From: Paludibacter sp.
Lineage (GTDB): Bacteria; Bacteroidota; Bacteroidia; Bacteroidales; Paludibacteraceae
DNA: 64,000 bases
Direction of reading: 5' to 3'
Assembly: GCA_031292575.1 (NCBI GenBank)
Contig: JARLGX010000019.1
Span: 1 to 64,000 of the forward strand
Each line of letters begins with the position of its first letter. The first letter of the stretch is position 1. The position numbers were made by a program, and so were the translations under genes. Shown in pieces: positions 40,588 through 44,370 of this stretch. The notes under the pieces were generated by a model that saw only the letters and a list, made by a program, of their open reading frames with translations, did not search any database and was not told the origin of the DNA.

Positions 40588-41133
40588 TTAAATGTAATAG
40601 GGGTCGTCCTTCCAGTTTTCAATGTTCCCATCGATATAAGCACCAATACGCCGGCATTCTTCGTAGTCACGGATAACATGATCGTGAAACCGGGTCTGCC
40701 AAACCGCAGTGCCCTGGGTATGCCGCAACGTATTTATCCGTGCTGTAACAGCCGATTTAAAACCGGCAACAAACGATGATATCGATTTCGGTTCACGATA
40801 TGCAGCGCCATTACCATCACGTCCAACACGCGGATTGGTATCATTCCCATGTAGAGACGCACGGCCGTGCGTCTCTAGGTATGGATCATCGGCATCATTA
40901 GACGCACGGCCGGGCGTCTCTACAATAATGGCGGGATTTTCAATGCGTAATATGGCGTGGATATGGTTAGGCATGATGACGAATGCGTCACAAAATAATT
41001 CCGACCGGATTTCAAATGATTTCTGCCATTTCTCCGCCACTATTTGCCCGCATTCCGACAAATACATTTCTTTATCAACTATACTACCAAACAAAAATTC
41101 GCGGTACGCAGCGTTGATGGTAATAAAATACAA
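40588..41133 (-). CDS. RayT/REP-associated tyrosine transposase, possibly 5'-truncated
   Basis: This protein of about 181 residues belongs to the Y1 (IS200-like) transposases of the RayT type: YFITINAAYREFLFG at the start, HUH motif MPNHIHAIL near residue 57, SSFVAGFKSAVTARIN, VWQTRFHDHVIRDYEE and AYIDGNIENW with the candidate nucleophilic Tyr. There is no ATG start; only a TTG, and a TAA closes the frame 11 codons upstream. A 40-residue Gly/Arg/Asp-rich insert (about 68-108) is encoded by two REP palindromes. No terminal inverted repeats of an IS are seen. Confidence 0.82.
   Translation of the reverse strand: MYFITINAAYREFLFGSIVDKEMYLSECGQIVAEKWQKSFEIRSELFCDAFVIMPNHIHAILRIENPAIIVETPGRASNDADDPYLETHGRASLHGNDTNPRVGRDGNGAAYREPKSISSFVAGFKSAVTARINTLRHTQGTAVWQTRFHDHVIRDYEECRRIGAYIDGNIENWKDDPYYI
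40851..40924. repeat. Inverted pair of GTAG-type REP palindromes inside the rayT frame
   Basis: The first is a perfect palindrome (40852-40877) with arm TAGAGACGCACGG and 5' GTAG on the plus strand. The second (40900-40923) has arm AGACGCACGG with one mismatch and its GTAG on the minus strand. The GTAG tetranucleotides face outward, the arrangement of a BIME. Both are in frame with the transposase. Confidence 0.8.
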
Positions 41134-41218: not shown

Positions 41219-41226
41219 TATATTTG
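41219..41226 (+). promoter_or_regulatory. -7 promoter element (TATATTTG) of the Septu-like operon
   Basis: TATATTTG matches TAnnTTTG and lies 28 bp before the ATG at 41254, ruling out the TTG at 41224 as start. Confidence 0.55.
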
Positions 41227-41253
41227 CACTTCAATATATTTAAAATAAAAGTT

Positions 41254-42501
41254 ATGAGCTACTTCCTGACAAACATTCACGTCAACAAGATTTTTCATCT
41301 CGAAAATTTTGATATTCCATTAGAGAATGACAGTCTGAAACATTTGATTATAACCGGTAAAAATGGTAGTGGAAAAACTATATTGCTAAATGCTATTGTG
41401 GAGTTTTTAGATAAGATTAAGTCTGATAATAGTTTATCATTTCTTTCCTATAAGGAATATTTAAGAAACCATATTCAAAGTTTAGAAGGAATTAGGAAGA
41501 ATAACCCTAACGCAACTGATATACCTCAACGGGAGGAAATTATTAGAAATTTTGAAAATCAAATAAATAATACTTTTGGAAAAGTGGAACTGACCTTTAA
41601 TAATATTGTAGATATTTCCAAAGCAAGCCAACAAGGTAACTTTATCTTTGCCTTTTATGCAGCCGATAGAAAAACAAATATAATTGAACCAATAAATCCA
41701 ACAAAACCTACTTATCGAATTTCTTATGAAATTAAGAACGATAGAATGGTTGATCAGTTTCTCAACTTTCTGGTTGATTTAAAGGTTCAAGAAGCCTTGG
41801 CAAGAAATGAAAAGATGCTTACGGATGCTGATGAGATTAAGGCTTGGTTTGAAAACTTTGAGCAATTATTGAAAGAGATATTCCAAAATCAAAACATAAA
41901 GTTGGAGTTCGATTACAAAGACTATAGTTTTTACATTCTCGATAATCAGAAAAAATTTAAATTCAATCAATTATCAGATGGTTATTCTGCAATTATAGAT
42001 ATTGTTGCCGATTTAATATTGAAGATGCAAGAGAAAACCTCACCTAACAGGGAATATCTGAAACATGGAATTGTTATCATTGACGAAATAGAAACGCACC
42101 TGCATTTAGAACTACAACGGCTAATCTTACCCATGCTTACACGCATATTTCCGAATATTCAGTTTATCGTAACAACTCATTCGCCATTTATACTGAACTC
42201 GCTTACAAATGCTGTTGCTTTTGATTTAGAGAATCGCGAAAAGCTGGAAGACCTGACCGAATACTCTTACGAAGCTTTATCTGAAGGTTATTTCGGTGTC
42301 AAGTCAGAGTCAAGTTATCTGGAAATTCGATTTGACAAATTCAAAGAATTGGCAATTAAAGAAACACTGACTGTTGGCGAAAAAGCAGAACTTCTGGAAC
42401 TTATTAAAGAATTCAACGACGTTTCCGAAGTTGTGTCTCCACAAATAAAGGCTGAATATCTTAGCATAAAATTAACTGCAAAAAACATAGTTAGTTTATG
42501 A
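41254..42501 (+). CDS. Septu-like AAA/ABC-type ATPase (PtuA-like)
   Basis: The 415-residue ATPase has Walker A GKNGSGKT (35-42), an ABC/SMC-type core with QLSDGYSAIIDIVADLI (signature-like), Walker B IVIIDEIETHLH, and an H-loop FIVTTHSPFIL. A helical insert lies between. Its last codons overlap the HNH gene by an ATGA. An SMC-like ATPase followed directly by a small HNH protein is the layout of the Septu anti-phage system (PtuA/PtuB) and of the effector pair in some retrons; no reverse transcriptase is present here. Confidence 0.85.
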   Translation: MSYFLTNIHVNKIFHLENFDIPLENDSLKHLIITGKNGSGKTILLNAIVEFLDKIKSDNSLSFLSYKEYLRNHIQSLEGIRKNNPNATDIPQREEIIRNFENQINNTFGKVELTFNNIVDISKASQQGNFIFAFYAADRKTNIIEPINPTKPTYRISYEIKNDRMVDQFLNFLVDLKVQEALARNEKMLTDADEIKAWFENFEQLLKEIFQNQNIKLEFDYKDYSFYILDNQKKFKFNQLSDGYSAIIDIVADLILKMQEKTSPNREYLKHGIVIIDEIETHLHLELQRLILPMLTRIFPNIQFIVTTHSPFILNSLTNAVAFDLENREKLEDLTEYSYEALSEGYFGVKSESSYLEIRFDKFKELAIKETLTVGEKAELLELIKEFNDVSEVVSPQIKAEYLSIKLTAKNIVSL

Positions 42502-43148
42502 TAAGAGTTGCCAAAAGTGCCGTTGTTCCACATTCATTATTAGTTGTTGGCAATACCAAATACAATCATCAGGATGTTCAAAAACAGCTGATTGAAGACC
42601 ACAAAAGCAAGTGCTATTTATGCGAGAGAACTCTTGTAACTGATTATGAAATTGAGCATCTAAGACCTTCAGCAAAAAATAATCAGAAACTAAAAACGTC
42701 ATGGAGCAATTTGTTTCTTTCTTGTGGATATTGCAACAAGAAAAAGCTTCATCATTTTGATAATATTTTAAATCCGTCGCTTCATAATATAGAAGAAATT
42801 ATTCTGTGCAATTTAGCTACGACTAAAAGTGTATCTTTTAGTTCTAATATGTCAGGTAATTTTCAGGTAGCTGAAACAATAGCATTATTGACTCGAATTT
42901 TTAATGGTACTGGTAAAATCAGACAAATTAAGGAAGAACAGTTTTACGAATACTTCCTTAGTAGAATGAATAATTTCTACTCTTCACTTGATAAATATAT
43001 TTCTGCTAAAACACCTGAAAACAAAGCTATAATGATTGAAGAGTTAGAGATTAAGCAAGAGTTTCTCGCATTCAAATATCATATATTGAAGCAAAGACAA
43101 GATTTGTTTGATGAATTTACACCCTATATGGTTTGGAATAAAGTCTAA
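42498..43148 (+). CDS. Septu-like HNH endonuclease (PtuB-like)
   Basis: The 216-residue protein holds an HNH-type core with zinc ligands: CYLC (C39, C42), EIEHLRP (H54), WSNLFLSCGYCNKKK (N71, C76, C79) and a final DNILNPS. The pattern matches the TIGR02646/PtuB type. The start overlaps the ATPase stop by 4 bp, so the two are translationally coupled. The C-terminal 110 residues are helical. Nuclease action on nucleic acid during phage infection is inferred from the family. Confidence 0.85.
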   Translation: MIRVAKSAVVPHSLLVVGNTKYNHQDVQKQLIEDHKSKCYLCERTLVTDYEIEHLRPSAKNNQKLKTSWSNLFLSCGYCNKKKLHHFDNILNPSLHNIEEIILCNLATTKSVSFSSNMSGNFQVAETIALLTRIFNGTGKIRQIKEEQFYEYFLSRMNNFYSSLDKYISAKTPENKAIMIEELEIKQEFLAFKYHILKQRQDLFDEFTPYMVWNKV

Positions 43149-43185: not shown

Positions 43186-43213
43186 GGCTGAATCTCCCCA
43201 CAGAAGTTCAGCC
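43186..43213 (+). terminator. Stem-loop after the Septu-like operon
   Basis: GGCTGAA (43186-43192) pairs with TTCAGCC (43207-43213). It is followed by TTTCCCCCC, not a clean T-run, so termination may be partial and transcription could enter the hairpin array. Confidence 0.45.
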
Positions 43214-43221
43214 TTTCCCCC

Positions 43222-43445
43222 CTCACCGCCCCGAGCATTTACCCCCTTTTTTAAGATTCAAGCTACCGCCCCGGGCGGAAGCATGAGTTGGAATGAATTT
43301 GCCCAACCGCTCCGAGCGGATGCTCGCCCTAAAATGAATTCACGATTTCGCTCCGAGCGAAAGCTCCCTTTCAAATGATTTTGACCTTTCGCTCGGGGCG
43401 ATTGGTCGCTTCGGAAAAATTTCTACATTTCGCCCGGAGCGGAAA
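43222..43445. repeat. Array of six GC-rich hairpin units with 41-bp period
   Basis: Palindromic cores CGCCCCGAGCA, CGCCCCGGGCG, CGCTCCGAGCG (twice), CGCTCGGGGCG and CGCCCGGAGCG start at 43227, 43267, 43308, 43349, 43390 and 43431. Spacing is 40 and then 41 bp four times. Flanking bases co-vary: CC..GG in one unit, TTT..AAA in others. Between cores, AATGAATTT-like bases recur, so whole 41-bp units were duplicated and diverged. The array is strikingly GC-rich against an AT-rich background and lies 160 bp before the DUF6261 gene. Confidence 0.85.
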
Positions 43446-43554
43446 CCCTTTGTTAATCGAGACTGTAGAAATAGCAGTATATATTCACGAAAAATAAATG
43501 TATAATGTACAAAATATTTTTCCTATTTGTGGTTAAGTTTTCAGAATTTATATA

Positions 43555-43562
43555 TATTTTTG
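43555..43562 (+). promoter_or_regulatory. -7 promoter element (TATTTTTG) of the DUF6261 gene
   Basis: TATTTTTG lies 43 bp before the ATG at 43606. TTTG at 43526-43529 is 25 bp upstream, a little far for a -33 element. It would start the DUF6261 transcript downstream of the hairpin array. Confidence 0.45.
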
Positions 43563-43605
43563 TGTTATTAATTTTCTATTATTAACCAATACATTTAAAT
43601 TTTTT

Positions 43606-44370
43606 ATGAAAGTCACTATTATTCGCGTACAGCTTAGTCATCTGTGGAACAGTGAGTATTGTATGTTTGTTAGTCAGATTGTTGCTATTTTTCTAAAATT
43701 TAATGCCGAAACTTTACATCTGAAAAAGGCATTTGACAGGGTGTTGGCACTAATGCCCGAGATTACAAAAATTAAAGCTCAAGAGTTGGGTAATGCCATC
43801 AGCAACCAGCTGGCCGACCTGAACACCGAACGCCGGACGTTGATTAAATCGATCATGGATCAGGTAACAACTTTTGGAAAACTGAGCATTCCTTCAATGG
43901 CTCAGAATGTGGTGGTGATGAACCGTTTTCTGGATAAACACGGCAGGGATATTGGCGATATAAACTATAACGACAATACAAAACGATTCAATGATTTGCT
44001 GGCCGACTATGATGGCAATGCCGAAGTTCAGGCAGCTGCAACAGCTATGCAATTTTCTATTTTATTCAACCATTTGCGGGAAATTAATACTCAGTTTGCC
44101 ACACTGTATATGCAACGTAGCGACGAAGATTCATCTGTTGAGGTGGTAGATGCACATCAAATTCGTTCTGAAACAGACAAGGCTTTGACTGCTTTTTACG
44201 ATGCTTTTGAATTTTGCAGTACCGAATATGAAGACCAAGACTACCAGACTCCGGCCGATAAAATGAATGACATAATTTCGCACTACAAAACCCAGCTGAA
44301 AGCCCGCCAGACACGCAGGCATACTGGTGAGCAAGTTCATACCGAAGCTCCGATAACTGCTGCTTCCTAA
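43606..44370 (+). CDS. DUF6261 family protein
   Basis: The 254-residue, mostly helical and charged protein shows the DUF6261 pattern: a short N-terminal RVQLSHLWNSEYCMFVSQ, then DRVLALMPEITKIKAQELGNAISNQLADLNTERRTLIKSIMDQVTTF and FNDLLADYDG..VQAAATAMQFSILFNHLREINTQFATLYMQR, with TPADKMNDIISHYKTQLKAR at the end. The family is, as far as I know, restricted to Bacteroidetes and of unknown function. It sits alone between the hairpin array and a strong terminator. Confidence 0.78.
   Translation: MKVTIIRVQLSHLWNSEYCMFVSQIVAIFLKFNAETLHLKKAFDRVLALMPEITKIKAQELGNAISNQLADLNTERRTLIKSIMDQVTTFGKLSIPSMAQNVVVMNRFLDKHGRDIGDINYNDNTKRFNDLLADYDGNAEVQAAATAMQFSILFNHLREINTQFATLYMQRSDEDSSVEVVDAHQIRSETDKALTAFYDAFEFCSTEYEDQDYQTPADKMNDIISHYKTQLKARQTRRHTGEQVHTEAPITAAS

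Follow-up and report, generated by a model that had tools for sequence, protein, structure and literature searches.

The window, a 64,000-nucleotide stretch of a Paludibacter sp. contig (JARLGX010000019.1), carries a row of six 15-bp dyads between a Septu gene pair and a gene of the DUF6261 family. The features of this region are listed below.

40588-41133, minus strand: RAYT-like gene (NCBIfam match of 53.8 bits, under the cut-off of 80)
41224-43148: Septu genes for PtuA and PtuB, adjoining the array on its left (PADLOC, E 7.1e-117 and 4.3e-74)
43186..43213, plus strand: terminator-like hairpin GGCTGAA..TTCAGCC, just 5' of the array, recognised by eye from the sequence and alignments
43225..43239, no strand assigned: palindrome unit 1, degenerate (CGCCCCGAGCA), outside the chain found by the scan
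43265..43279, no strand assigned: palindrome unit 2, from sequence and scan
43306..43320, no strand assigned: palindrome unit 3, from sequence and scan
43347..43361, no strand assigned: palindrome unit 4, from sequence and scan
43388..43402, no strand assigned: palindrome unit 5, from sequence and scan, outer pairs imperfect
43429..43443, no strand assigned: palindrome unit 6, from sequence and scan, outer pairs imperfect
43555..43562, plus strand: TAnnTTTG, at -51 from the ATG and downstream of the array, from a motif scan
43606..44370, plus strand: DUF6261 gene, 254 aa (PF19775, 66.9 bits; predicted model all-helical, mean pLDDT 88.2)

The cores of the six dyads started at 43227, 43267, 43308, 43349, 43390 and 43431 (dyad centres at 43232, 43272, 43313, 43354, 43395 and 43436) and were spaced by 40, 41, 41, 41 and 41 bp, confirming the six cores and the near-exact 41-bp period of the original prediction. 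The Septu-like pair that had been placed to the left of the array was likewise borne out by the PADLOC matches to PtuA and PtuB. The array ended 165 bp 5' of the DUF6261 gene, with the last dyad centre 170 bp from the ATG. The motif CGCYCSGRGCG had five matches in the 64-kb window, all inside the array, compared to a mean of 0.01 in 100 shuffled windows, none of which reached five. The array was absent from the list produced by Tandem Repeats Finder. The T-run of the hairpin at 43186..43213 was degenerate in the window and intact (GTTTTTTTATCC) in L094, L095 and G015. This hairpin was not listed by a simple terminator scan, in which the single terminator-like site between 43100 and 43700, at 43428-43444, was palindrome unit 6 itself. 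CRISPR, which has identical repeats, unrelated acquired spacers and cas genes, was rejected, as it had been in the original prediction: units of many arrays had similar spacers, the spacers of different loci were homologous and in matching order, and a Pfam scan of six window proteins revealed no cas family.

PF19775 was the sole Pfam match of the DUF6261 protein, which had no match in PADLOC, NCBIfam or PHROGs. No known DNA-binding domain was found in domain and profile scans, and the predicted fold matched generic helical bundles only. DUF6261 proteins were mostly acidic, with a median pI of 6.2. No description of DUF6261 function was found in the literature searched, in which DUF6261 is named in one unrelated paper and PF19775 in none, and nothing relevant to such arrays was found in print, as judged from titles and the opening lines of abstracts. 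The RAYT-like gene lay 2.1 kb from the array; its sub-threshold NCBIfam match fell in two stretches and its middle seems to carry a long insert.

Linkage of arrays to DUF6261 genes was determined in a sample of 107 DUF6261 matches with flanks, drawn from 25 of 60 genomes (the window's own genome included), using a sequence-blind scan for palindrome chains at 39-43 bp. Under a strict call, which asked for a score of 8.8, at least three units and at least 400 bp of flank, arrays were found upstream of 34 of 94 DUF6261 genes, downstream of 4 of 102 and on either side of 37 of 89. Control ORFs (150 aa or more, from 1.165 Mb of two genomes, with DUF6261 and Fn3-type genes included) had arrays upstream in 14 of 666 cases and downstream in 12 of 666. 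Phased palindromes, which the original prediction had proposed to look for upstream of other DUF6261 genes, were thus enriched there; by the same call, 60 of the 94 genes had no upstream array. When regions of up to 600 bp upstream were compared with 294 shuffles, 45 of 98 reached the 99th percentile and 37 topped the highest shuffle; the corresponding numbers were 8 and 5 of 105 downstream regions and 1 and 1 of 107 gene bodies. The four DUF6261 loci with an array 3' of the gene had similar N-termini.

The period was also recovered when it was left free between 20 and 69 bp. Among the 98 upstream regions, 20 peaked at 41 bp, nine at 42 bp and four at 21 bp, with 0-1 at every other period; downstream there were four at 42 and one each at 21, 58 and 63. 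In the 1.165 Mb of bulk DNA, eight chains scored 13 or more at period 41, compared to 0, 0, 0, 0, 0, 1 and 1 at seven control periods, and 16 chains scored 8.8 or more, compared to 3, 1, 5, 1, 2, 2 and 5.

The predicted association of the array with DUF6261 therefore held as an enrichment but not as an exclusive one, since a second family has arrays and some arrays lie at neither gene. In 829 kb of the window's own genome there were eight arrays that scored 13 or more, classed here as strong. Four of them stood at that span's four DUF6261 genes, one preceded an Fn3-type gene, and the remaining three lay at neither family. These three were similar to DUF6261 arrays, either from this genome or from others, and may be what is left after loss of the gene. 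The genome has a fifth DUF6261 gene, which scored 5.4 in the scan, under the threshold, and has a 42-bp tandem repeat about 500 bp upstream. The Fn3-type family, modelled as a helical N-terminal part plus an Fn3 domain, had 55 matches in 16 of 48 genomes of the genus. Its loci had their own 41-42-bp palindrome arrays upstream in 12 of 28 examined, and one locus had three or more units downstream. Profile comparison revealed no relation between the Fn3-type and DUF6261 families, so that either two unrelated proteins read the arrays or neither does.

Three further observations concern the Fn3-type family. The gene at L244:11592-12206 (G000:C12:91592-92203) is a member of this multicopy family and has no Pfam match. 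Relatives named from Flavobacterium and Methylobacter were also seen. At L252:11023-14780 (G016), one group of GGGTGACTTGAAGTCACCC-type palindromes lies next to a transposase-like ORF (MPNHFH motif), and a second group follows an Fn3-type gene; these palindromes may be true REPs.

The anatomy of 45 arrays was analysed, of which 24 were odd-centred and 21 even-centred. The arms paired from two or three to seven bases off centre, and pairing fell from 0.82-0.89 at seven bases from the centre to 0.44-0.49 at eight. Spacings were 41 or 42 bp in 191 of 205 cases, within an imposed tolerance of 39-43, and the commonest number of units was six (17 of 45 arrays). Within arrays, the palindrome-arm columns were 0.88-0.95 alike, compared to 0.69-0.75 at 9-13 bases from the centre. 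Between loci the palindromes were unlike and were common mainly to close relatives (for example TCTACAATCTGTAGA, TTCCCAATGTTGGGAA, TTGCCCAAGCTGGGCAA and TTCTGAAAATTTCTGAA), with size and pitch constant. Several arrays, including L091 and L045, were near-perfect tandem copies; some of these had a period of 42, and equal spacing in such arrays proves nothing.

Arrays were also found beside distant members of the family. Four of eight phylum-wide loci reached a score of 8.8 with three units in 700 bp, although one third unit was doubtful and one array lay about 400 bp off. The DUF6261 gene of Prevotella nigrescens (NZ_CP082843.1), which encodes a protein 23.5% identical to the C28 protein, had five units of the TTGCCGAGGTTCGGCAA type, each exactly 41 bp from the next. 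The annotated start of this gene (L304:2839-3792) falls within the palindrome array, and the real start is probably 2978. Of two human-gut contigs labelled as phage, one had a weak array (9.6) and the other none. Upstream of L062, L148 and L155, a second dyad of the CTGCAA-G-TTGCAG type seems to be placed in the spacer at half pitch. At L024:2990-3220 (G000:C14:217.5k), alternating palindromes gave a double period of about 82 bp, or 2 x 41; no DUF6261 match was found on this contig, and the array was not flagged by the 41-bp scan.

The paired outer changes that had been reported for the window units were indeed present (ACC..GGA, TTT..AAA), but core positions 4 and 8 also varied independently (T-A, C-G, T.G, C.A), so that the window by itself gives weak evidence of pairing and the relatives supply that evidence. 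To this end, units of the window subfamily were picked by their outer TTGC N9 GCAA alone, which gave 37 units from 16 of 27 loci. Their inner pairs were complementary in 81, 68 and 65% of cases, compared to 27% expected, with many different inner triplets; the covariation across arrays for which the original prediction had proposed a check was therefore found. This outer-ascertained test was used in place of a within-array covariation score, which looked strong but was set aside because its top scorers, L005 and L106, have chains with doubtful units.

Whole rows had switched palindrome in two homologous pairs. L094 and L095 are paralogues in one genome whose proteins are 97.6% identical; their palindromes agreed at 59% of positions and their spacers at 79%, in four stem pairs both bases had changed, and 11 were paired in only one of the two arrays. 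The coding part may have undergone gene conversion in these paralogues, since the first 221 bases are identical. Between L037 and L243, an own-genome array at no DUF6261 gene, palindromes agreed at 60% and spacers at 86% (three units), and six pairs were changed on both sides. Across nine homologous pairs, the palindromes had changed more than the spacers in two and were more conserved in seven (in one narrowly, 0.73 vs 0.71). Palindromes are thus usually conserved and occasionally switch across the whole row.

One protein residue appeared to track in part one base of the palindrome, as judged from the aligned proteins and arrays. All 13 window-subfamily proteins whose arrays are G-type (TGC..GCA), with G at the third outer base, had Arg at residue 184, although 5 of these 13 labels rest on under-threshold or two-unit arrays. 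The residue was His, Glu, Val and Thr in the four window-subfamily proteins with TTTC/TTCC arrays, and it is His in the DUF6261 protein of the window. Of 254 columns it was the only one conserved in the G-type group and lost in all TTTC/TTCC proteins. The palindrome types were labelled by hand from the array consensus, after labelling by regular expression had given a negative result, with no separating column and with stray single matches labelling L174 and L176. For G015, the expected residue was written down before reading and the expectation held. There were counter-cases: the arrays of L098, L172 and L179 are non-G-type with Arg still at residue 184. L175 has His and a weak non-G array. 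Eight unlabelled loci all had Arg, which makes Arg at 184 the rule anyway. The tree allows three independent pairs, in which residue and base went the same way in one to three and never in opposite ways; this was not significant.

The position of the units relative to TAnnTTTG, which we take to be the -7 promoter motif of Bacteroidetes, bears on whether they are read as RNA or as DNA. Within the window subfamily, the motif scan gave 10 hits for 13 arrays at -60 to -41 of the ATG, after the array, and two hits in the 260 bp preceding the 13 arrays. For other DUF6261 genes there were 27 hits in the 260 bp preceding 31 arrays and four in the last 120 bp before the ATG, from which it follows that the arrays outside the window subfamily are probably transcribed, as part of the 5' leader. 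Deviations from the array consensus comprised 13 GT, 10 AC and 47 other mismatches, with both sides changed in 13; there was no sign of RNA wobble (G-U). Hairpins weaker than -3 kcal/mol made up 43% of other-DUF6261 units, 56% of Fn3-type units and 12% of window-subfamily units. The window array folded better than shuffles on both strands (z -3.4 sense, -3.5 antisense), and over 51 arrays the sense strand was favoured in 21, an uninformative split. In even-centred other-DUF6261 arrays the central pair was at chance (k=1 0.24). None of 15 loci searched gave an Rfam match that reached the gathering score; a JUMPstart match in the window region (E 0.63) was under the gathering score and at chance level, and a known Rfam family was therefore rejected. 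On balance, these sequence patterns lean towards units that act as duplex-DNA dyads rather than RNA hairpins.

The arrays were compared with known systems. Iteron and operator arrays lie beside the gene of their own binding protein, as in parC-ParR and plasmid iterons. The arrays described here resemble them in having phased, gene-linked sites of private specificity, with cognate binding presumed here, and differ in their four-turn pitch, palindromic units, lack of any known DNA-binding domain found, and a format common to two unrelated families. Type III toxin-antitoxin systems (ToxIN/CptIN/TenpIN) have an endoribonuclease toxin of the ToxN type and pseudoknotted RNA repeats, with one promoter ahead of the repeats serving both repeats and toxin. 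In these systems short tandem repeats precede a small protein gene, the two being mutually specific, and a Rho-independent terminator lies between repeats and toxin gene (PMC5086642). The present loci are alike in having short tandem repeats directly 5' of a small protein gene. They appear unlike in that the simple scan of the window gave no terminator separate from the array ahead of the gene, the units are simple dyads, the array is sometimes 3' of the gene, and the protein is predicted to be all-helical with DUF6261 as its sole family match. The promoter motif of the window subfamily also follows the array in the motif scan, whereas the other subfamilies would fit a single promoter before the repeats. 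In REP/RAYT systems one palindrome family is dispersed in many copies (PMC3733652); short extragenic palindromes and a nearby RAYT-like gene are found in the window too, but the palindrome varies by array and the linkage is to DUF6261, not to RAYT. The BrickBuilt MITE of Porphyromonas gingivalis, with a 23-nt repeat, a leader and tail and dispersed copies (PMC4596501), is likewise an intergenic tandem repeat in a Bacteroidales genome; it was rejected, since the unit here is a 41-bp dyad whose sequence differs by locus and the window array has one own-genome relative at 76% identity.

The reading that we favour, tentatively and with somewhat less than even confidence, is that the arrays are private phased dyad sites which the neighbouring protein reads as duplex DNA. 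About six dyads of 14-15 bp would line up along the same side of the helix, a pitch of 41-42 bp being about four helical turns, and selection would maintain them as the target to which the adjoining gene's protein is matched. That protein, here DUF6261, would bind each dyad as a dimer, with contacts between the dimers of a row, and the simplest role would be control of its own locus. Private dyad sequences at each locus would keep paralogues in the same genome from cross-reacting, and when the protein's reading residue changed the array units would follow. In its favour are the linkage to the gene, the fixed pitch and palindrome size, mismatches that show no G-U preference, the weak hairpins of many units, the two concerted switches and the partial agreement with residue 184. 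Proximity is also kept and transcript position is not: the array lies before the promoter motif in the window subfamily, after it in other DUF6261 loci, and 3' of the gene in four. Against it are the unrelated Fn3-type family with arrays of the same kind, the lack of a known DNA-binding domain in the scans, the mostly acidic proteins with generic fold matches, the few events behind the residue-184 link, the folding of both strands of the window array, the 60 of 94 genes with no upstream array by the strict call, and the seven of nine pairs whose palindromes diverged less than their spacers.

A possible but less probable explanation is an array of transcribed RNA hairpins, bound and perhaps cut by the neighbouring protein, which would serve in leader control or as a small-RNA partner in the manner of type III toxin-antitoxin systems. 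The probable 5' leader position outside the window subfamily agrees with this, as do centres of 3-4 nt that would fit loops (with the chance-level central pair), the folding of the window array relative to shuffles, and the 88% of window-subfamily units that fold at -3 kcal/mol or better. Yet the promoter motif of that subfamily stands 3' of the array, with a terminator-like hairpin ahead of the array in the loci read; the antisense strand folds equally well, units of the other arrays are in many cases too weakly paired to fold, and neither a G-U bias nor an Rfam match at gathering score was found. It is unlikely, though less so than the two alternatives that follow, that a trans-acting factor, either a nucleoid or regulatory protein or a maintenance or recombination enzyme, reads the dyad shape, with DUF6261 and Fn3-type genes as common cargo. 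An array type common to two unrelated protein families would suit such a factor, as would the four of eight strong own-genome arrays that lie away from DUF6261, one of them at the Fn3-type gene. However, arrays of the same genome mostly carry different palindromes, and one sequence-specific factor therefore cannot read all of them; the three arrays at neither gene may be relics, and residue 184 partly tracks the palindrome.

The original prediction had also raised a minisatellite of REP elements spread by the nearby RayT. In this form, or as a MITE with a trapped tandem repeat of the BrickBuilt type, a mobile minisatellite is improbable, despite the RAYT-like gene and the 76% identical second array at C12:56835-57053. 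Apart from that relative, only short pieces of the window array were found in its own genome; CGCTCCGAGCG, with up to one mismatch, had 21 stranded hits in the 3.46 Mb genome, 12 of them in three arrays, so that the palindrome is not one dispersed sequence. REP elements have a GTAG or CGTC tag at one end; inspection by eye showed no consistent tag, CTAC (the reverse of GTAG) being no more than 10 bases away from units 2 and 6 but not from the other four. In addition, arrays track DUF6261 across genomes and families with unrelated palindromes. Least probable of all, and very much so, is neutral tandem duplication with a palindromic bias, in which the pitch would be inherited from a single ancestral array and read by nothing. 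The near-perfect tandem copies are in its favour; against it stand the exact pitch despite diverged spacers, the greater likeness of the arm columns, the compensated switches, and the fact that Paludibacter and Prevotella both retain arrays near DUF6261, at 23.5% identity between their proteins.

Rows of the same pitch with private words beside related genes point to an undescribed recognition system. It involves a nucleic-acid signal whose sequence is free and whose geometry, symmetry and within-array likeness are fixed, a kind of signal to which ordinary motif searches are blind. Natural specificity switches are supplied by L094/L095, within one genome, and by L037/L243, and Prevotella nigrescens, the genome of which is public, is a named test species. 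More speculatively, and with considerable doubt on our part, these loci could represent a general format in Bacteroidota, in which a short protein gene from one of several unrelated families is joined to its own barcode of about six ruler-spaced palindromes, private to the locus and switchable while spacers and gene stay. If so, the barcode and not the protein fold would be conserved, as a homotypic address in DNA or RNA that separates paralogues. The arrays provide a first testable handle on DUF6261 and on the unnamed Fn3-type family.
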